DNA of 64,000 nt from an uncultured Eubacteriales bacterium (GTDB taxonomy: Bacteria; Bacillota; Clostridia; Peptostreptococcales; Anaerovoracaceae), in contig CACYLW010000005.1 in assembly GCA_902775345.1 (NCBI GenBank), forward strand, positions 1 to 64,000, given 5' to 3'. Shown piece after piece: positions 34,995-45,097 of this stretch; positions within the stretch are counted from its first letter, which is position 1, and each line of letters opens with the position of its first letter. A program made the translations under genes and the position numbers. Under the pieces are notes generated by a model. That model saw only the letters and a list, made by a program, of their open reading frames with translations, searched no databases and was not told the origin of the DNA.

Positions 34995-35023
34995 TTGACA
35001 ACACAAGCAAACGTTGCTATATT
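34995..35023 (+). promoter_or_regulatory. consensus promoter of the methionine-uptake operon
   Basis: TTGACA (34995-35000), 17 bases, TATATT (35018-35023). Transcription should begin near 35030, giving a leader of about 210 nt before metN. Confidence 0.82.
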
Positions 35024-35028: not shown

Positions 35029-35060
35029 ATGAACTTATTCTATGAAAGGAGCACATTCAC

Positions 35061-35126
35061 ATGACAAGAAACATGATGATGGAAATGGGAATGATGGGCA
35101 TGTGCATGTGCAGAGCCGATGAATAG
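35061..35126 (+). CDS. 21-residue Met/Cys-rich leader peptide
   Basis: ATG at 35061, stop TAG at 35124-35126, with a near-perfect GAAAGGAG site 9 bases upstream and a consensus promoter 40 bases before. Nine of 21 codons are ATG (positions 1, 5, 6, 7, 9, 11, 12, 14, 16) and two are Cys (15, 17); the end is polar, RADE. The ORF precedes an intrinsic terminator that stands before metN. This arrangement is that of a ribosome-stalling attenuator sensing charged tRNA-Met, with Cys as a possible second input. A working Met-rich microprotein (for example metal-binding) is the alternative. Confidence 0.72.
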   Translation: MTRNMMMEMGMMGMCMCRADE

Positions 35127-35187
35127 CATAGGATAAGGTCATAACGAATCCAGAAACTGTGTATATTTTCTCATGTGTGTGAGATGC

Positions 35188-35225
35188 CGGGGCAGGTCGT
35201 TAAGACCTGCCCCGTATTATTTTTC
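35188..35225 (+). terminator. attenuator terminator before metN
   Basis: 11-bp GC-rich stem (35188-35198 / 35204-35214), 5-nt loop GTTAA, then TATTATTTTTC. It ends 14 bases before the metN ATG and inside the transcript begun at about 35030, so metN expression requires read-through or a competing fold. Confidence 0.85.
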
Positions 35226-35239
35226 AGGAAAGGAACGGG

Positions 35240-36280
35240 ATGGCAGAACACATCATTAGACTCCAGGGGGTAACGAAGGAATTCGATACCAAGGGCGGCA
35301 AGGTGATCGCGCTGAAAGACATAAACCTGGACATAGAAAGAGGAGATTCATACGGAATAATCGGACTCTCCGGAGCAGGCAAGTCGACTCTTGTCAGAAC
35401 GATAAACCTTCTCGAGCAGCCAACTGAAGGTAAAGTCATCTTCAATGACAGCGCGCTGACAGGCCTGGGAAGCAAGGACCTTAATCGTCACAGGCGCAAG
35501 ATATCGATGATATTCCAGCAGTTCAATCTGTTGATGCAGAGAGATGCTCTGGGCAACGTGCTCTTCCCGCTGGAGATAGCGGGAGTGCCGAAGCAGGAAG
35601 CGCTGAAGAAAGCACAGGAGCTTCTGAAGGTGGTAGATCTTGAAGAAAGAGCCCATTCGTATCCGTCGCAGCTGTCAGGAGGGCAGAAGCAGAGGATAGC
35701 AATAGCCAGGGCGCTCGCGTCAGATCCGGAGGTCATACTTTGCGACGAGGCTACATCGGCTCTTGACCCCAAGACCACAAGATCGATCCTCGGTCTGCTC
35801 AGAAAGATAAACGAGGAACGCGGCATCACGCTGGTAGTGATAACCCATGAGATGGAAGTTATCAAACAGCTCTGCAACAAGGTGGCGGTCATAGAGAACG
35901 GCGAGATCGTGGAGAGAGGCGAAGTGCAGGAGGTCTTCAAAAAACCTAAAACGAAGGCAGCCAGAAAGCTCTTCTTCCCTGACGGTCAGAGCCGTGAAAA
36001 ACCGCTTGTAAAGACCTCAACGAAGAGAAGAGTAAGGCTCGTATTTGACGAGGCTACCGCAGGCGAACCGATAATCGCCAACATGATAATGGAACTCGGA
36101 GCTCCGGTGAACTTCCTTTATGCCAATCTGGACGTCCTGGGCGGATCCCAGAAAGGCCAGATGGTGATATGCCTGGCAGCCGACAGGGAAACCGCTGAAA
36201 AGCAGAAGGAGTACCTCAAGGCAAAAGGCGTGGAGTTCACAGAGATCGAAGAGGATGATGATTACGGAGAGGAGGAATAG
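35240..36280 (+). CDS. metN: methionine ABC transporter ATP-binding protein
   Basis: 346 residues. The ABC domain has Walker A GLSGAGKST, Q-loop FQQFNLL, signature LSGGQKQR and Walker B VILCDEATSALD. The C-terminal 80 residues (RRVRLVFDEATAGEPIIANM...) form the NIL domain that senses cytosolic methionine and inhibits transport in MetNI. Its mRNA starts behind a Met-rich leader ORF and terminator. AGGAAAGGAACGGG precedes the ATG. Confidence 0.96.
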   Translation: MAEHIIRLQGVTKEFDTKGGKVIALKDINLDIERGDSYGIIGLSGAGKSTLVRTINLLEQPTEGKVIFNDSALTGLGSKDLNRHRRKISMIFQQFNLLMQRDALGNVLFPLEIAGVPKQEALKKAQELLKVVDLEERAHSYPSQLSGGQKQRIAIARALASDPEVILCDEATSALDPKTTRSILGLLRKINEERGITLVVITHEMEVIKQLCNKVAVIENGEIVERGEVQEVFKKPKTKAARKLFFPDGQSREKPLVKTSTKRRVRLVFDEATAGEPIIANMIMELGAPVNFLYANLDVLGGSQKGQMVICLAADRETAEKQKEYLKAKGVEFTEIEEDDDYGEEE

Positions 36281-36284
36281 CTTG

Positions 36285-36947
36285 ATGGATACACATACAT
36301 TGCTTAATCTTCTCGGCGAGGGCACCGTTCAGACCCTGATAATGACACTTATAGGAACCCTGGTCTCGTACATCATAGGCCTGCCTGTAGGAGTCTCGCT
36401 GATAGTTACCGGACCTAACGGGATACATCCTCTGCCTGCGTACAATAAGGTCATGGGTTTCATAGTAAATGTCATCAGGTCGGTACCGTTCCTGATACTG
36501 ATGATAGCCCTGACGCCTTACATAAGGATGGTGATCGGAACAGGCATCGGCACACCGGCTACGACTGCGGCGCTCATACTGGCAGCATGGCCGTTCGTGG
36601 CAAGGATGGTCGAGCAGAGCCTTCTGGAAGTAGACGCGGGAGTCATAGAAGCTGCACAGGCCATGGGAGCGAGCAACATGCAGATAATACGCAAAGTCCT
36701 GCTGCTTGAGGCAAGACCTTCTCTCCTTAACGGAGCTGCCGTGGCGACTATTACGATTCTCGGTTATTCAGCAATGGCGGGAACGCTCGGCGGAGGCGGC
36801 CTGGGAGACATTGCAATAAGATTCGGACATTACAGATTCCAGCCGACTATCATGTGGATCACCATCATAATCCTGATAATCTTGGTACAGGTGATGCAGG
36901 AAATCGGCATCAAACTCGCGGCAAAGATGGATAACCGCCTTAATTAG
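36285..36947 (+). CDS. metI: methionine ABC transporter permease
   Basis: 220 residues; start at 36285 (MDTHTLL) after GGAGAGGAGG that lies in the end of metN. Five membrane segments and the EAAxxxG coupling motif EAAQAMGASNMQIIRKVLL, which docks on MetN. Family-typical NVIRSVPFLILMIAL near the start. 4 bases separate it from metN. Confidence 0.95.
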   Translation: MDTHTLLNLLGEGTVQTLIMTLIGTLVSYIIGLPVGVSLIVTGPNGIHPLPAYNKVMGFIVNVIRSVPFLILMIALTPYIRMVIGTGIGTPATTAALILAAWPFVARMVEQSLLEVDAGVIEAAQAMGASNMQIIRKVLLLEARPSLLNGAAVATITILGYSAMAGTLGGGGLGDIAIRFGHYRFQPTIMWITIIILIILVQVMQEIGIKLAAKMDNRLN

Positions 36948-37020: not shown

Positions 37021-37845
37021 ATGAAGAACATCAGGAAAAACATTATTCTGGCAGCAATTCTTGTACTTGCACTCAGCATCCTTGCTGCATGCGGAGGCGG
37101 CGGCTCTGACGATGCGGATAAGACCATAAAGGTTGCAGCATCACCTACACCTCATGCAGAGATCCTCAACTCTGTTGCCGACAAGCTTGCAGAAGAGGGA
37201 TGGACTCTCGAAGTTGTCGAATTCGATGACTATGTTCAGCCAAATGTTGCTACGACCGACGGCGACGTGGATGCCAACTACTTCCAGCACGTTCCTTATC
37301 TTGATTCGTACAATGAGGAAAACGGTACTGACCTTGTTTCCGTAGCAGGGATCCACTATGAGCCGATGACAGTACATGCAGGCACAAAGAAGAGCTTCGA
37401 TGATCTCGAAAAGGGCGACAAGATCGGTGTTCCTAACGACACGACAAATGAAGCAAGAGCCCTGCTTCTCCTCGAGGCAAACGGAGTCCTTACTCTTAAG
37501 GAAGGCGCCGGAGTAAATGCTACAAAGGAAGACATCGTAGATAACCCTAAGGAAATCGAGATCGTTGAACTCGAAGCAGCTTCGATCCCTGGATCGCTGC
37601 CTGACCTCGCTATCGGCGTGATCAACGCAAACTATGCTATCGGTGCAGGTCTCCAGAATGCTGATGCTCTTGCTGTAGAGGCACCGGACTCACTCGCTGC
37701 TGACACATATGTAAACATCATCGTTGTAAACAAGGGTAATGAAGAGACCGAAAAGACAAAGGCTCTCGTAGCAGCACTCCAGACTGACGAAGTAAAACAG
37801 TTCATCGAGGAGAAGTACAACGGCGCAGTTGTTGCGAAGTTCTAG
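37021..37845 (+). CDS. metQ: methionine-binding lipoprotein
   Basis: 274 residues: lipoprotein signal with lipobox LAAC (Cys about 24), a Gly-rich spacer, then an NlpA-family domain (VAASPTPHAEIL, DANYFQHVPYLD, GVPNDTTNEARALLLLE, NANYAIGAGL). The extracytoplasmic receptor that delivers methionine to MetNI. GAAAGAAAGGGG precedes the start. 73 bases separate it from metI. Confidence 0.95.
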   Translation: MKNIRKNIILAAILVLALSILAACGGGGSDDADKTIKVAASPTPHAEILNSVADKLAEEGWTLEVVEFDDYVQPNVATTDGDVDANYFQHVPYLDSYNEENGTDLVSVAGIHYEPMTVHAGTKKSFDDLEKGDKIGVPNDTTNEARALLLLEANGVLTLKEGAGVNATKEDIVDNPKEIEIVELEAASIPGSLPDLAIGVINANYAIGAGLQNADALAVEAPDSLAADTYVNIIVVNKGNEETEKTKALVAALQTDEVKQFIEEKYNGAVVAKF

Positions 37846-37849
37846 ATCA

Positions 37850-38554
37850 ATGAATGACAAAAGACAGGTTGCTGTAATTGCCGGTACGCCGGTAGACACT
37901 CAGATGGGTGCAGAATGCATTGAAAGAAAAACGCGTGAAGCCGGCCTTGTGCCCGGCTTCATGCCGTTGAACTGTCCGGCTTCGGCTGACTGCGACGAGC
38001 AGGTCAGATTCCAGTATTCGGATAATGACGGAAAGCGTGCGGTCATGGACAACATCTTTGATCCGGCCATTGAGGACGGTGTCAGGGACTTTTTCGTATA
38101 CTGCAACTCGCTGTCCGGAGCGTTTGATTTTGACGCCTACGCCCTGCGCAAGTCGATAGAGTCAGGGGCGGATATAAGGATCTACACACCGCTGCAGGTG
38201 TACAGGGAGCTTGGGCGGGCATATGAGCGTGTCGGGGTCATGGCCGCAAATAATCTCTCAGCACACGCGATCGAGGAGGCGCTGATGGCGTCCAATCCTG
38301 ACATTTACATGATCGGTACGGGCAACATGGCCATAGTCCGCGCGATAGAGGACGGTCTTTCTCCCGGAGAGATAGTGGAAAAATGCGGTCTGGCTCATCT
38401 GGTGAAATACCTGGAAGCGTGCGGAGCTGAAGCTCTCGTGCTCGGATGCACCCACTTCCCGTACATAAAGGAAGAGATCGGAAAACTGACTGACCTTCCT
38501 GTGGTCGATCCGGCAGATGAAATGTTTAAGGCTCTTATGGAAGCAGCCTGTTGA
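37850..38554 (+). CDS. aspartate/glutamate-racemase superfamily protein
   Basis: 234 residues starting at 37850 (MNDKRQVAVIAGTP), 4 bases after the metQ stop and without a clear ribosome binding site, so coupled translation is likely. The two halves carry the catalytic Cys motifs of PLP-independent racemases: VYCNSLSGA and VLGCTHFPYI. Substrate unknown. Its place as the last gene of a methionine-uptake operon raises the possibility that it acts on D- or L-methionine or a related amino acid; this is inference from position only. Confidence 0.82.
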   Translation: MNDKRQVAVIAGTPVDTQMGAECIERKTREAGLVPGFMPLNCPASADCDEQVRFQYSDNDGKRAVMDNIFDPAIEDGVRDFFVYCNSLSGAFDFDAYALRKSIESGADIRIYTPLQVYRELGRAYERVGVMAANNLSAHAIEEALMASNPDIYMIGTGNMAIVRAIEDGLSPGEIVEKCGLAHLVKYLEACGAEALVLGCTHFPYIKEEIGKLTDLPVVDPADEMFKALMEAAC

Positions 38555-38710: not shown

Positions 38711-41700
38711 ATGGCAGGCAACTTTAAAAAAGTAGGCAAATGGGGCGAATGCCTCTGGGGGATAGACGAGAACGGAAACCTCATCATAGACAATGGACAG
38801 GCTGCGGATCTGGGTGCTGAAGGATCCCCGTGGAAGGGCTTTGAAGACACGGTCAAATCAGTTGTTGCAACTCGTGACGTGAGCTTCCCTGACGGCGCAT
38901 CGCTTGCAGGACTGTTCAAGGGATTCAGAAAACTGGTCAAGGCGGATCTGAGCGGATTCGACACTTCAAATGTCACTCGCATGGACTCGATGTTCGAGGG
39001 CTGTGCGAACCTTTGCGAACTCGACCTCTCATCCTTCGACACGCGCCGGTGCTCTGATCTGAGCAGAATGTTCGGGCAGTGCGCAAAGCTTGACGACATA
39101 CTGCTGGGTGAGAACTTCAATACCGAAGGCGACGGCAGCACTGACTGCGGAAGACTTGCGGTGAAGGAGTACGGCAAGTACAAAAAGGCAAAACCGATCG
39201 CGGTAGAGGGATTCAGGGTGGCATACCACAGCAACTTCGACGGCGAGGGTGCAGAGGTGACCGAAGAGAGACGCACCATCCCGAACGCGCCGTACCTGAT
39301 CGAGGCGCCTATGTTCAGCACACCTGATGAAAGCTGGGCTTTCAAATCGTGGAACTCCCGTCCTGACGGAAGCGGAGCGAACATCCCGGCCGGTACCGAG
39401 ATCCATTCGATCGACAGGGACCTCGAACTGTACGCGGTGTGGGGACACGCACCGAAGATCGGCGAGGTCACAGAACCTGCGGCCTTCTGCTTCGGCGAGA
39501 CCATCCCGTTCGAGCTTCCTGAGATCATCTCGGTCAATGACCCTGAAGTTACGGGCTATCTTGAGATAAGTGAAACAGGCGAAGAGGGCACATGGAAAGC
39601 GATCAATCACAACGCCATCCTGCCTGTATCATGTGACGGAAATTTCATCAGACTCCATGCTGCAAACAGCGTAGGCGAGGCGGTTTCGAATATCGTGAAG
39701 CTGAGCATCAAAAAGGCTAACATTGATGTGTCCGCCGTCCGCTGGGCAGAAGAGGACGACATGACATATGACGGCAGCGTCAAGCGTGTATGGCTCGAGG
39801 GACTCCCTACCGGTGTCGTGCCTAGATACATTGGCAATGAAGGCGTTGAGGCCGGTACTTATACATCGACGATCAGCTTTGATTTCGATCAGGACAACTT
39901 CAATGAACCTCTCATAGTGCGCGAGCATGAGTGGACCATCCGTAAGGGTGCTTATGACATGTCGCAGGTCAAATGGAACTATGAGGGTCCGTTCGTATAT
40001 GACGGCAGCAGCCACGGCGTAGAGCTCAGGGGACTGCCTGAAGGAGTAACTGCTCATTATGAGGATAATAACGCGCTGAGGGCCGGAGTCTATACTGCAA
40101 AGGCGAAGTTTGAATATGACAGCGCCAATTACGAGAAGCCTCAGGATGTGGCTCCTTGCGTCTGGGAGATCAAGAAAGTAGGTATCGAAGCATCCGGCCT
40201 TGAGTGGTCAGGCTGCGAAGACTTCGTATACGACGGTTCTCCTAAGAAAGTGTTCATCAGGAATCTTCCTGAGGATGTCGAAGTCGAATACGACGGAGCT
40301 GAGGAGACACAGGCCGGCAAGTACCTCGCGAGGGCAACTGTCAGCGGAAACTACTGCTTCATGGGCCCGGCGGAATACGAATGGGAGATCGCAAAGGCTT
40401 CCTATGATATGTCCGGCACGGCGTGGAGTGAAAAGACAGACTTCGAATACGACGGAGAGGCACACAGCGTACAGCTGGCTTCTTATCCGGAGGAGCTCGG
40501 AGTAAGATACAGCGGAAATGAAGGAAGAAGAGCCGGAGAATACAAAGCCCGTGTATCCTTCATCAATCCTGATACACACAACTACAATACACCGGACGAC
40601 ATGACCATCGGATGGAGGATCGGAAAGAAGAACCTCGACATGTCCGCCGTCAGGTGGAATTACGATGGAGCTTTCACATACGACGGAGAGCTCAAGAAGG
40701 TGGAACTCACAGGGCTTCCTGAGGGTGTCTATGCTGAATATGAGAATGCTTCGGCATATGACGCGGGCATCTACAATGCGCACGCGAACCTCAGATTCGA
40801 CGGAGACAACCTGGAAGTTGCGTCCCCTGCGGACTGCAGCTGGAGGATCACAAAGAAAAGAATAGATATCTCGGATGTACACTGGGATTACTCTGAACCG
40901 TTCGAATACGACGGAAACGAGCACGGCATCTATCTTGTCAATGTTCCTGAGGGAGTCGATGTAGAGTACAGCGGCAACACACGCATCGAGGCGGGCAAGT
41001 ACGCGGCGAGCGCAGTGCTGGTACCGGCTGATGCGAACAACTACGAAGTTCCTGAGGTCAACGGCTGCGCATGGTCGATCGACAAGGCGGAGTACAGGCT
41101 GCCTCAGCTCTCATGGACAGACTCATCGTCTTTCATTTATGACGGAAGCGAAAAATCCGTAGGCATTATAAACGACCTCGGAGATGCTGTCAGGGTCGAT
41201 TACACAGGCAACAGCGCAAAAGGCGCCGGCAGATACTTCGCGAAGGCGGTATTCTCGCCTGTCGACAGCGACAACTACAGCGCACCGGATCCGCAGGGCT
41301 ATTCGTGGAGCATCGGCAAGGCTCAGTTCGACATGAGCGGAGCTTACTGGGATTACAGCGAACCGTTCATTTATGACGGCAGCCCTAAGACAGTGAAGGT
41401 CGCAGGCCTTCCTGACGGAGTATCGGCTGAATACTTCAACGCCTCGGCCACGGATGCCGGCGCGTACACTTCGACTGCGAAGTTCAGGGTCATGGATGCT
41501 GACAATTACGAAGACAACATTCCTGACATGATGCTCGACTGGCGCATCGACAAGGCATCGTTCGACATGAGCGCAGTCAGGTGGCAGGATAACAGGGAAT
41601 TCTCGTACGACGGCGAAGTCAAGGGCGTCAGACTGACAGGCCTGCCTGAAGGACTCACTCCTGAGTATGAAGGCAGCTCGGCTTCGGAAGCCGGTGAATA

Positions 41701-44700
41701 TACAGCCAGAGCCGGATTCGAATACGATGAGAGAAACTACAGAAAGCCTGAAGTGCCGACCTGCCACTGGGTCATCGAGAGGACTCCTGTAGACATCTCT
41801 GCAGTGAACTGGGATTATGAAGAGGCATTCGTATACGATGGCTCCGAAAAGACAGTCGCTGCCAGGAACATACCGGAAGGCACAACGGTCAAATACAACA
41901 ATGCCAGGGCGATACAGGCGGGCACATACGTAGCAGCTGCCGAGATCATCCCTGATGACATGGATAACCTCACAAAAACCAGACTCGAGAACCTCACATG
42001 GAGGATCGACAAGGGCAATTACGACATGAGTCATGCCCGCTGGGATTATGATAAGCCTTTCACATATGACGGAAGCGAGTTCAGGGTAATACTGAAGGGA
42101 CTCCCTGAAGGCGTTCTGCCTACATACAGGGGCAATACGGCGCGCGATGCCGGAACATATAAGGCAAGCGTTTCCTTCACAGCCGTGGACGGCCGCAACT
42201 TCAACACGCCTGAACCGATGGAACTCGAATGGACCATCAGGAAGGCTGAATACGACATGTCCGGAGCTTCATGGGATTATGAGGGCGAGTTCATTTATAA
42301 CGGAAGGATGCATGAAGTATCGCTCAGGGGACTTCCTGACGGAGTCAGAGCGGTATATTCAGGCAACGCTGCAGCTGATACAGGCTCATATGAGGCAGCT
42401 GCGGAGCTGATCCCGTACGATTCGTACAACTACAACCAGCCGTTCATCGAAAGCTGCAAATGGCAGATCGTGAAAGCTGACTATGACATGTCCGCAGTCA
42501 GATGGGATTACAGCAGTCCGAAAGTTTACAACGGAAGAGAGCAGAGCGTAATGCTCGAACAGCTCCCGAACGGCATCCAGGCCAGCTATTCGGGCAACGA
42601 GGGCAAGGAAGCCGGAAAATATACAGCAAAAGCAGTTCTTACGGTTTCCGATCCTGCAAACTACAACACACCGTCTGTAGCAGACTGCGACTGGGAGATC
42701 GAAAAGGCTGAATACGACCTGTCGGCAGCTGACTGGGGCTACAGGCCGGGATGCTTCGTATATGATGGAGGCAGAAAGACCATCGAACTCAAGGGCCTGC
42801 CTGAGAATGTAACAGCTGAATATAACGAGAACAGCGCTGACAAAGCCGGAAAATACACGGCTACGGCAAGCTTCACTACATCTGACAGCAACTTCAGGGC
42901 TCCGGATCCGATCCGTATCGACTGGAGCATCGACAAAGCTGACTATGACATGAGCAAGGCTGCGTGGGACTATGACGGAAGCTATGTATTTGACGGAACA
43001 CCGAAGAGGATACAGCTTACCGGCATCCCTGAAGGTGTAAGCGTAAGCTATGAAGGCAACACTGCAGTAAATGCGGGAGACTATACGGCTGTCGCGAGAT
43101 TCGGGATCGATACTTCGGACTTCAATGTGCCTGAAGAGATGATCTGTGAATGGACGATCGAAAAAGCTGATCCTGACATCCGCAGCCTAAGATGGGATTA
43201 CTCACGCGCATATACTTATGACGGCAGGGAAAAGTCCGTAAGGCTCGAGGGCATCCCTGGGTCTCTTGACGTAGAGTATACGGGCAACGCGGCAAGTGAG
43301 GCCGGACTTTACACAGCTCACGCGATCCTCACGCCAAAGGATCCTGACAACTACAACGGCACATCAATAAGAGACTGTGAGTGGCGCATCGTAAAGGCCA
43401 CTTACGACATGTCAGGTGCGAGATGGGAAGGCGAGTTCGAATCCGTATATGACGGAAGCGAAAAGTCGGTATATGTTGCGGGACTCCCTGAAGGAATCAC
43501 ACCTGTATACCACGGAAATACCGCCGTGAACGTAGGAGAGTACAGCGCTTCAGTCGACCTGAAATACGACGCTGTCAACTACCACACACCGGAAATGGGC
43601 GGATGCACCTGGAAGATCAGCAAGGCTTCATATGATTTGTCGAAGACCGCATGGCAGGGTGTCACGGGATTCACATTTGACGGAAGTCCGAAGACTGTCG
43701 AACTCACAGGGCTCCCTGAGGGCATCACACCGGTATACTCCGGCAACACAGCGACTGACGCAGGCTCGTACGAAGCGTCTGTAAGTCTGGAATACGATGC
43801 TGAAAACTATGAACAGCCTACTTTCGGAGGCTGCAGCTGGAGCATAGCTCCTGCCGCGGTCGATGTGGATACCAAGGCGGTCGAATGGGTATACGAAGGC
43901 CCGTATGTCTATGACGGTACGCCTAAGAGCGTCTGCATAGCTACAAAGACACGCCAGCTCGGATTCTTTGAGAAGCTGCGCGGCGTAGTGCCGGAATCAT
44001 ACCTCACGGGTATACCTGAAGGCTTCGACGTGGTCTACGACGGAGAGACAGCGACCGACGCCGGCGTATACTATACGACTGCCAAACTGATCAACAGAGA
44101 GCCGGGCAATTACACTGAGCGCGAGCTTCCTCCGTTCAAGTGGGAGATACTGAAGGCGCCTATCGACATGAGCGGCGTTCACTGGAACTACGAGGGACCA
44201 TTCACGTTTGACGGCGAAGAGAAGTGCATCGAGCTCGTCGGCCTTCCTGATACAGTCAAGGTCACATATACAGACAACAGAGCCATGAACTCAGGCGAGT
44301 ACGAGGCAATGGCTGTCGTAGAGGCGAAGGACCCGGTCAACTACGAAACCCCTGCTCCTGTAAGCGGATGCTGGTGGCATATCGACAAGGCAAGCTACGA
44401 CATGTCGCAGGTAAGATGGGACTACGATGATGAGTTCGTATACAACGGCAAGGAAAAGAGCGTAAGGCTGACCGGCCTGCCGGAAGGTGTCAGAGTAGAG
44501 GCGTATGTAGGCAACAAGGGTGTCGACGCAGGCGGATATACCGCTGAGGCTAAGCTCAGATACAAGCATAAAGAGAACTTTGAAGCGCCGTCCGTACCTG
44601 AACTCAGGTGGAGGATCGCCAAGAAGCCGATCGATCTTTCGGAAGTGAAGTGGAACTACAGCGATGAAACGGTCTTCGTATATGACGAAAAGGCGAAGGA

Positions 44701-45097
44701 AGTAAAGCTTGAAGGCGTTCCTGAAGACATCGAGGTCGTTTACACCGACAATTCCAAGATCAACGCAGGCACTTACACTGCAAGGGCAAGGCTCATCTAC
44801 GACACACGCAACTGTGAGGCGGTAGAGATCCCTGACCTCAAGTGGAGGATCCTCAGAGCCAGATATGACACCTCGGCAGCTCACTGGGATTATGAGGAGC
44901 CGTTCGAATACGATGGCACTGAAAAGCACATCACGCTGAAGAACGTTCCGTGGCAGATCGCAGTCAGATACAGAGACAACAGAGCTGTCGCTCCTGGCAA
45001 ATATACCGCAAAGGCATATCTGACATACGACAACGAAAACTATGAGGCTCCTGAGATCGATACTACGATCGACTGGGAGATCACCGGAAAGGAATAA
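38711..45097 (+). CDS. 2128-residue protein with 23 MBG-like repeats, no signal peptide
   Basis: Residues 1-60 resemble the N-terminal module of BspA-like proteins (CLWGIDENGNLIIDNG). Next come DUF285 (BspA-type) repeats at about 62-135 (GFDTSNVTRMDSMFEGC), an InlB-type B-repeat at about 165-245 (FKSWNSRPDGSG, LYAVWG) and an Ig-like stretch. From residue 337 there are 23 tandem repeats of about 77 residues with the pattern YDMS...W.Y...F.YDG..K.V.L.GLPEGV...Y.GN.A..AG.YTA...NY..P....C.W.I.KA. Repeat 19 carries an insertion of about 22 residues (43945-44010). No signal peptide and no LPXTG or SLH anchor is present, and an in-frame stop at 38660 excludes an upstream extension. AAAAAAGGA precedes the ATG. 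The stop overlaps the CNNM start. Confidence 0.88.
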   Translation: MAGNFKKVGKWGECLWGIDENGNLIIDNGQAADLGAEGSPWKGFEDTVKSVVATRDVSFPDGASLAGLFKGFRKLVKADLSGFDTSNVTRMDSMFEGCANLCELDLSSFDTRRCSDLSRMFGQCAKLDDILLGENFNTEGDGSTDCGRLAVKEYGKYKKAKPIAVEGFRVAYHSNFDGEGAEVTEERRTIPNAPYLIEAPMFSTPDESWAFKSWNSRPDGSGANIPAGTEIHSIDRDLELYAVWGHAPKIGEVTEPAAFCFGETIPFELPEIISVNDPEVTGYLEISETGEEGTWKAINHNAILPVSCDGNFIRLHAANSVGEAVSNIVKLSIKKANIDVSAVRWAEEDDMTYDGSVKRVWLEGLPTGVVPRYIGNEGVEAGTYTSTISFDFDQDNFNEPLIVREHEWTIRKGAYDMSQVKWNYEGPFVYDGSSHGVELRGLPEGVTAHYEDNNALRAGVYTAKAKFEYDSANYEKPQDVAPCVWEIKKVGIEASGLEWSGCEDFVYDGSPKKVFIRNLPEDVEVEYDGAEETQAGKYLARATVSGNYCFMGPAEYEWEIAKASYDMSGTAWSEKTDFEYDGEAHSVQLASYPEELGVRYSGNEGRRAGEYKARVSFINPDTHNYNTPDDMTIGWRIGKKNLDMSAVRWNYDGAFTYDGELKKVELTGLPEGVYAEYENASAYDAGIYNAHANLRFDGDNLEVASPADCSWRITKKRIDISDVHWDYSEPFEYDGNEHGIYLVNVPEGVDVEYSGNTRIEAGKYAASAVLVPADANNYEVPEVNGCAWSIDKAEYRLPQLSWTDSSSFIYDGSEKSVGIINDLGDAVRVDYTGNSAKGAGRYFAKAVFSPVDSDNYSAPDPQGYSWSIGKAQFDMSGAYWDYSEPFIYDGSPKTVKVAGLPDGVSAEYFNASATDAGAYTSTAKFRVMDADNYEDNIPDMMLDWRIDKASFDMSAVRWQDNREFSYDGEVKGVRLTGLPEGLTPEYEGSSASEAGEYTARAGFEYDERNYRKPEVPTCHWVIERTPVDISAVNWDYEEAFVYDGSEKTVAARNIPEGTTVKYNNARAIQAGTYVAAAEIIPDDMDNLTKTRLENLTWRIDKGNYDMSHARWDYDKPFTYDGSEFRVILKGLPEGVLPTYRGNTARDAGTYKASVSFTAVDGRNFNTPEPMELEWTIRKAEYDMSGASWDYEGEFIYNGRMHEVSLRGLPDGVRAVYSGNAAADTGSYEAAAELIPYDSYNYNQPFIESCKWQIVKADYDMSAVRWDYSSPKVYNGREQSVMLEQLPNGIQASYSGNEGKEAGKYTAKAVLTVSDPANYNTPSVADCDWEIEKAEYDLSAADWGYRPGCFVYDGGRKTIELKGLPENVTAEYNENSADKAGKYTATASFTTSDSNFRAPDPIRIDWSIDKADYDMSKAAWDYDGSYVFDGTPKRIQLTGIPEGVSVSYEGNTAVNAGDYTAVARFGIDTSDFNVPEEMICEWTIEKADPDIRSLRWDYSRAYTYDGREKSVRLEGIPGSLDVEYTGNAASEAGLYTAHAILTPKDPDNYNGTSIRDCEWRIVKATYDMSGARWEGEFESVYDGSEKSVYVAGLPEGITPVYHGNTAVNVGEYSASVDLKYDAVNYHTPEMGGCTWKISKASYDLSKTAWQGVTGFTFDGSPKTVELTGLPEGITPVYSGNTATDAGSYEASVSLEYDAENYEQPTFGGCSWSIAPAAVDVDTKAVEWVYEGPYVYDGTPKSVCIATKTRQLGFFEKLRGVVPESYLTGIPEGFDVVYDGETATDAGVYYTTAKLINREPGNYTERELPPFKWEILKAPIDMSGVHWNYEGPFTFDGEEKCIELVGLPDTVKVTYTDNRAMNSGEYEAMAVVEAKDPVNYETPAPVSGCWWHIDKASYDMSQVRWDYDDEFVYNGKEKSVRLTGLPEGVRVEAYVGNKGVDAGGYTAEAKLRYKHKENFEAPSVPELRWRIAKKPIDLSEVKWNYSDETVFVYDEKAKEVKLEGVPEDIEVVYTDNSKINAGTYTARARLIYDTRNCEAVEIPDLKWRILRARYDTSAAHWDYEEPFEYDGTEKHITLKNVPWQIAVRYRDNRAVAPGKYTAKAYLTYDNENYEAPEIDTTIDWEITGKE
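39719..45094 (+). repeat. 23 tandem MBG-like protein repeats (about 230 bp each)
   Basis: Coding repeats of about 225-235 bp, each starting at a codon run for YDMS or similar and ending at a Lys-Ala pair. They are diverged at the DNA level, so recent slippage is unlikely; repeats 17 and 18 share GLPEGITPVY and are the closest neighbours. The period is one extracellular-type beta domain per unit. Confidence 0.9.

Follow-up and report, generated by a model that had tools for sequence, protein, structure and literature searches.

What controls the metNIQ methionine transporter operon of this uncultured bacterium of the Anaerovoracaceae, in which a short ORF rich in Met and Cys codons and an intrinsic terminator precede metN? 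In Bacillota, control of methionine genes is generally attributed to SAM riboswitches, T-boxes and repressors, and the classical ribosome-mediated attenuators are those of the trp, his, leu, thr and ilv operons of enterobacteria. An earlier note on this DNA had suggested a methionine attenuator, and this interpretation gained support in our analysis from the conserved Met-rich ORF, from two-sided changes in the stems and from a candidate antiterminator. We consider it likely that the metNIQ leader is a ribosome-mediated leader-peptide transcription attenuator; judging from sequence comparison, it would sense shortage of Met and probably of Cys too. The evidence bears directly on the parts of the leader, on their conservation and on two-sided base-pair changes in three helices within the genus.

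The window, that is, the whole 64,000-nt stretch analysed, contains the parts given in Table 1. The promoter, the ribosome binding site (RBS), the 21-codon ORF (nine Met, start counted, and two Cys) and the 11-bp terminator before metNIQ, all listed in the earlier note, were confirmed in the sequence. The RNA start is predicted near 35030 from the promoter-like TTGACA-17-TATATT. The terminator stem ends 25 nt before the metN ATG (35240) and its T-rich tail about 14 nt before it, which agrees with the 14 bases given earlier for the U-tract. The folding z of 35030-35239 was -3.76. A stop-free stretch of 21 residues with at least 8 Met and at least 10 Met plus Cys, a criterion chosen after the ORF was seen, occurred once in the window and in none of 40 simulated first-order 64-kb windows. 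Downstream, metN (NIL domain), metI and metQ had Pfam matches above the cut-offs, and their best NCBIfam matches were MetN, MetI and MetQ, all below the NCBIfam curated cut-offs.

Table 1 Parts of the metNIQ leader and operon, in window positions
Feature	Position	Strand	Basis and remarks
Putative sigma-70-type promoter, TTGACA-17-TATATT	34995-35023	+	Consensus match alone, 11/12
Region 1, CUUAUUCUAUG	35034-35044	+	Predicted RNA 5' end; partner 35127-35137; MFE fold, pair counts
Leader RBS, AAAGGAG	35045-35051	+	Sequence; 9 nt 5' of leader ATG
Leader ORF, 21 codons, MTRNMMMEMGMMGMCMCRADE	35061-35126 (stop included)	+	Sequence; conserved in relatives
RBS/start helix arm	35051-35063	+	35051-56:35106-111 and 35058-63:35099-104; pair counts
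Met-Cys codon helix arm, CAUGUGCAUGUGC	35099-35111	+	Pairs with RBS/start arm; pair counts
Region 2a, CAUAGGAUAAG	35127-35137	+	Partner region 1 or (first 5 bases) region 2c
Region 2b, GGUCAUAACGA	35137-35147	+	Candidate antiterminator 5' half; CC 35150-35151 extends it in one fold
Region 2c, CUGUG	35157-35161	+	Alternative partner of 35127-35131; CUAUG in most relatives
Candidate antiterminator 3' half, GG + UCGUUAAGACC	35195-35207	+	Spans terminator loop plus part of each arm
Intrinsic terminator stem-loop	35188-35214	+	11 pairs, 9 G-C, loop 5; T-rich tail to ~35225
metN, methionine ABC transporter ATPase with C-terminal NIL domain	35240-36280	+	
metI, permease	36255-36947	+	
metQ, NlpA-family lipoprotein	37021-37845	+	

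The regulators usual for such genes were searched for with Rfam. The scan of the window gave a single match, a tRNA, and no riboswitch, and no riboswitch was matched in 36 related loci. The SAM riboswitch model (RF00162) had no match at the metN leader; the single SAM riboswitch of this genome is on contig C12, upstream of metK, and SAM riboswitches were found in 44/47 genomes of the genus. Likewise, the T-box model (RF00230) had no match at metN (contig C5), and the two T-box matches of the genome, from the genus scan at E<=0.001 and both below the Rfam cut-off, were on contigs C7 and C11. The earlier statement that neither an S-box nor a T-box is apparent before metN therefore held. Since the sole SAM riboswitch lies before metK and the T-box matches lie on other contigs, metNIQ and metK appear to be under different control. 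Among clostridial MetQ loci surveyed (Rfam covered 80 of 86; L303-L308 were left out), a SAM riboswitch was found in 27/80 and a T-box in 5/80.

To see how far the leader extends, peptide profiles were used; they contain peptides from several of the matched genomes, and their E-values are not independent. In 349 Anaerovoracaceae genomes, a 14-peptide profile found the leader in 44/47 genomes of the genus at E<0.002, the threshold for counting a match as real; in the remaining genus genomes, G407 matched at E=1 only and G400 and G418 had no match. At E<=1 the same profile matched 81/349 genomes. With the window's 21-residue peptide as query, 11/297 genomes of the order were matched at E<=0.1, ten in the same genus, counting the window's own genome, and one in a different genus, and a 19-peptide profile matched 25/297 at E<=0.05, all in Anaerovoracaceae. 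In a class-level sample of 392 genomes, the 19-peptide profile matched the genome of the window only, and more distant leaders were therefore looked for at MetQ loci. A lack of conservation of the ORF or its Met codons, which the earlier note had named as one refuting outcome, is contradicted: the Met-rich ORF occurs in these 44 genomes of the genus and in nine genera besides, so that ten Anaerovoracaceae genera carry the leader (g1, g66, g35, g37, g83, g82, g72, g86, g78 and g20). Its presence in the other genera is independently supported, because those ORFs were found by looking upstream of metN. Where metN was within the stretch (placed by tblastn), the Met/Cys-rich ORF lay 60-283 nt upstream of it; the contig of L085 ends before metN. 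By script criteria, which left out L012 with a weaker Met-rich ORF, 13/30 metN loci first examined (L002-L031; L031 had only 60 nt upstream available) and 1/13 further loci (L097-L109, from 22 remaining metN places; L107 was short) carried such an ORF. A pattern scan of named genomes matched 90 stretches, and in 44 of the 80 examined a same-strand metN lay no more than 500 nt away, one of these 44 (L145) holding a degenerate leader copy; L190 and L200 are two more genus leaders, too close to the stretch end for a metN call. Genus-type leaders were found in records titled, for example, Mogibacterium sp., Candidatus Crickella or uncultured Clostridiales and in Alterileibacterium massiliense, and both Crickella and Alterileibacterium are Anaerovoracaceae.

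Among the 45 genus loci, the RBS AAAGGAG was present in 43, the region 1 string UUAUUCUAU in 36, the GGA codon in 44 and the GGC codon in all 45, and Cys15 was replaced by Arg in 3. The peptide core MGMMGMCM is nearly invariant in the genus, and a related core is common to the family. Such a core would also suit regulatory nascent-peptide arrest, in which the Met/Cys-rich chain would stall the ribosome with a small molecule (Met, SAM or other) and not at hungry codons, as with TnaC or plant CGS1. We regard this as unlikely, because composition and not sequence is kept between lineages and the base conservation in the genus, including the glycine codons GGA and GGC, is partly explained by pairing. 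Five genus loci (L050, L055, L066, L067 and L073) keep the Met-rich ORF but have lost one part or another of the leader (the promoter and RBS, region 1, region 2, or the 3' arm of the terminator); these natural deletion variants may represent alleles that are uninducible or constitutive, or they may stem from assembly errors. In L077 (~782-832), a second, partial Met/Cys leader copy without an RBS (MMMELRMMDMCMCAPK) stands in tandem before metN.

Met/Cys-rich leaders were also found in other Clostridia. A leader with a terminator lies before metQ-metN-metI in L189 (the same leader occurs in L191, L144 and L165, the last cut off), before metQ in L148 and, in L142, in front of a metN of 54% identity. 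A survey of 86 loci chosen from MetQ matches, nearly all from other clostridial families, gave five with a Met/Cys-rich ORF and an RBS (L261, L284, L295, L296 and L301) under criteria (RBS, Met/Cys density, 10-65 aa) that miss weaker leaders, and no other ORF in these five stretches passed the same filters. The gene after the leader was metN in L261, L295 and L296 (best match TIGR02314, below cut-off), an NlpA-domain gene in L284 and metY, for O-acetylhomoserine sulfhydrylase (TIGR01326 above cut-off), in L301 (G673). A terminator was found by script after the leader in 30/34 leaders tried, the four without one being L036, L093, L301 and L296. Across these lineages the sequence differs and the Met/Cys make-up is kept, which is what codon sensing predicts. 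As Met/Cys-rich peptides are able to bind Cu(I), the ORF might instead encode a small metal- or redox-binding protein that lies before metNIQ by chance, but we find this extremely improbable, given that the leader sits before metN, metQ or metY with a terminator usually following, that its sequence drifts between genera and that RNA helices covary across the ORF and its flanks. Two further observations come from the survey loci: L301 places a Met/Cys leader before a methionine biosynthesis gene, beyond the transporters, and the post-leader gene of L284 (2-1237, minus strand) fuses a family-3 solute-binding domain to the NlpA domain.

The helices were compared in an alignment of 39 distinct genus leaders out of the 45 loci; the six left out were L050, which has lost its promoter and RBS, L066 and L067, which have lost the post-stop region, L073, which has lost the 3' arm of the terminator, L078, which lies at a contig end, and L063, a duplicate. 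The earlier note had found no convincing antiterminator, but a candidate exists: 35137-35147 can pair with 35197-35207 in the terminator loop and 3' arm. In the second helix, the RNA 5' end (region 1) pairs with the bases just 3' of the leader stop (2a), and in the third, which was missing from the earlier note, the leader RBS and start pair with the leader Met-Cys codons. The short pairings proposed earlier, GGCAT with ATGCC and CACATGA with TCATGTG, differ from these conserved helices. Counting 35137-140:35204-207 plus 35142-147:35197-202 for the antiterminator, 35035-44:35127-36 for region 1:2a and 35051-63:35099-111 for the RBS/start helix, 95.3% of cells were paired over the 39 sequences vs 23.6-54.1% when the partners were slid by 1-3 columns, a control that favours a structure read off these same sequences. 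Both-side changes were seen in 9 cells (reached in 0/500 shuffles) and 5 pairs (8/500), and the covariation score was reached by 19/500 shuffles, which ignore relatedness.

The two-sided changes were then placed on a metN tree containing 38/39 aligned leaders. At pair 35059:35103, G-C has taken the place of A-U twice, once in the L079/L083 branch and once in L090; the same change makes Cys15 Arg, so pairing in the RNA is preserved at the cost of the residue. In the L079/L083 branch, G-U and A-U replace G-C at 35146:35198, and region 1:2a has two-sided changes in L068 and L084. Within the genus, these changes support all three predicted helices, in line with the check for covarying stems suggested at the outset, and the candidate antiterminator, which would be exclusive with the terminator, is supported by this comparison inside the genus and rests mainly on it. 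A competing fourth helix (2a:2c, 35127-31:35157-61) can form in 39/39 aligned sequences, which gives 2a two partners, both of the form CURUG, that exclude each other. The antiterminator duplex of the window was calculated at -15.4 kcal/mol vs -7.5 in shuffled leaders (z -3.6, p 0.003). This duplex test, from which 4 leaders without a script-found terminator and 3 with too short a segment were excluded, gave p<0.05 in 2/7 genus leaders (L002 and L083; the window's included) and in 2/20 others (L015 and L142).

Covarying helices and strong base-level conservation might equally mark a ligand- or tRNA-binding riboswitch of a new class, with the ORF secondary. We think this very unlikely, since Rfam matched no riboswitch here or in the related loci, though genus scans detect SAM- and T-box-like elements elsewhere in the genome, and since the other genera have a similar peptide make-up and no evident common fold. 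Against the attenuator reading it also counts that the helix between the RBS and the codons can alone explain the base conservation of the MCMC codons.

For the attenuator, we infer leader translation, stalling as the signal, a contribution of Cys and the ribosome positions, and we propose the following order of events. The transcript would start with region 1, and the leader gene would come next. With ample charged tRNA-Met (and probably tRNA-Cys), ribosomes would pass the Met/Cys codons, reach the stop and mask region 2a, which would disfavour the antiterminator, so that the terminator forms and metNIQ is off. When Met is short, a ribosome would stall at the Met codons and leave region 1 to pair with 2a; the adjoining 2b would then pair with the emerging terminator loop and 3' arm, the terminator would close too late, and polymerase would read into metNIQ. 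Of the Met/Cys leader described earlier, the Met-rich ORF stands; as a signal, Cys figured there in the title alone, and it seems a likely co-signal. The Cys codons may act as sensors or be structural: in the genus they lie in a helix, but leaders of differing sequence in other Clostridia are Cys-rich too.

This scheme was examined with an equilibrium folding model, in which the RNA ended in the terminator loop, before the 3' arm, and ribosome footprints were masked. The folded set was 40 genus leaders, including the duplicate L063 and the terminator-less L073; L050, L078 and the natural deletions L055, L066 and L067 were left out. Mean antiterminator probability over the 40 leaders was 0.82 with no ribosome and 0.80-0.82 when a ribosome stood at the first Met codon, a middle one or the last. 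It was 0.71 with one ribosome at the last Met plus one initiating, 0.57 with one initiating ribosome alone, 0.53 with a ribosome at the stop and 0.38 with ribosomes at the stop and initiating, and masking region 1 gave 0.43. A drop of more than 0.05 was seen in 28/40 leaders with a ribosome at the stop and in 32/40 when another was initiating, so the effect was partial and in the expected direction. The drops with a stop ribosome or a masked region 1 suggest, within this model, that the 5'-end helix helps the antiterminator and that a finishing ribosome would remove this help. In full-length RNA the terminator was always favoured at equilibrium (0.96-0.99), so the switch must be kinetic. The early-branching L004, L052 and L082 have no good region 1 and depart from the model, and L068 fits it partly, as masking region 1 raises and does not lower its antiterminator probability.

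A leader peptide needs initiation, which Met shortage also hampers, and this counts against the attenuator reading as well. One version of the attenuator would deal with it: the leader may be ON by default when untranslated, with termination solely via ribosomes that reach the stop. We put this forward tentatively and hold it to be somewhat doubtful. The region 1:2a helix adjoins antiterminator 2b:3, with one base in common, and could stack on it, with 2c competing for 2a. Since the region 1 helix adjoins the antiterminator rather than excluding it, untranslated RNA is predicted to read through, and failed initiation (no fMet-tRNA) and stalling at Met codons would both lead to read-through. 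In trp attenuation, lack of translation leads to termination. If true, the default-ON version would reverse this logic and solve the difficulty that methionine serves as initiator too, which tryptophan does not.

With classical attenuators the window leader shares a short ORF rich in the regulated residue, an intrinsic terminator and a mutually exclusive antiterminator; unlike them, it has Met/Cys codons, stands before a transporter operon and has a region 1 that precedes the ORF at the RNA 5' end, with a helix that adjoins and does not exclude the antiterminator. For hisS in bacilli, PMC2965389 describes a histidine leader; it states that, with the exception of ermC, no such leader had been demonstrated outside Proteobacteria and Actinobacteria. 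A full-text literature search, thin on subscription journals, gave a sole methionine-leader precedent at metNIQ, metL of Streptomyces lividans TK24, a predicted leader peptide containing CMC and MC (PMC8079986). Like the window leader, metL is a Met and Cys peptide before the same operon, but it is a leaderless 29-aa peptide of Actinobacteria that has 3 Met, counting the start, and 3 Cys, and is known as a prediction, with no comparative support given in the part of that text available. A metL-type leader, being leaderless and, per its authors, without a typical intrinsic terminator, does not describe the window leader, which has an RBS and a terminator. At actinobacterial cys operons, Cys-rich leader peptides also have codon runs for a sulfur amino acid before sulfur genes, but these are Cys only and without a conserved terminator, and no conserved RNA structures were reported upstream of methionine operons in Actinobacteria (PMC1262725). 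The Met T-box of the Lactococcus lactis met operon is predicted to sense uncharged tRNA-Met and controls a methionine transporter by termination (PMC7058034); there the tRNA binds the RNA directly, whereas the window has no T-box match. The SAM riboswitch (RF00162) differs in sensing SAM, and the one match in this genome is the one upstream of metK.

What would be new is a Met/Cys-codon attenuator in Bacillota, at a transporter operon, with a helix at the RNA 5' end that may turn the default state around. Comparison lends support to another RNA-level route to methionine genes, in which ribosomes would read Met/Cys codons; the evidence for it comes from a family of Clostridia mostly of gut origin and from scattered places elsewhere in the class. 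How a leader peptide senses the amino acid that each ribosome needs to start becomes a concrete, testable question, and the defined RNA segments are available as mutational targets.

Some minor observations concern the transporter genes and their neighbours. An in-frame TGA in metN of G011 and G095 was rejected, since it lies 5' of the start codon. In MetQ-like lipoproteins (e.g. G645, G597, G541, G011, G004 and L189 1390-2244), the best match to NlpA begins at profile position 96-99, an apparent circular permutation; in L189 the match falls in two stretches, C-terminal half first. In the window, an Asp/Glu-racemase family gene (37853-38551, plus strand) lies directly 3' of metQ, possibly in the same operon, and is followed by a 2128-aa ORF (38711-45097, plus strand) with many tandem repeats YDG...GLPEGV..Y.GN...AGxYTA, perhaps a surface protein.
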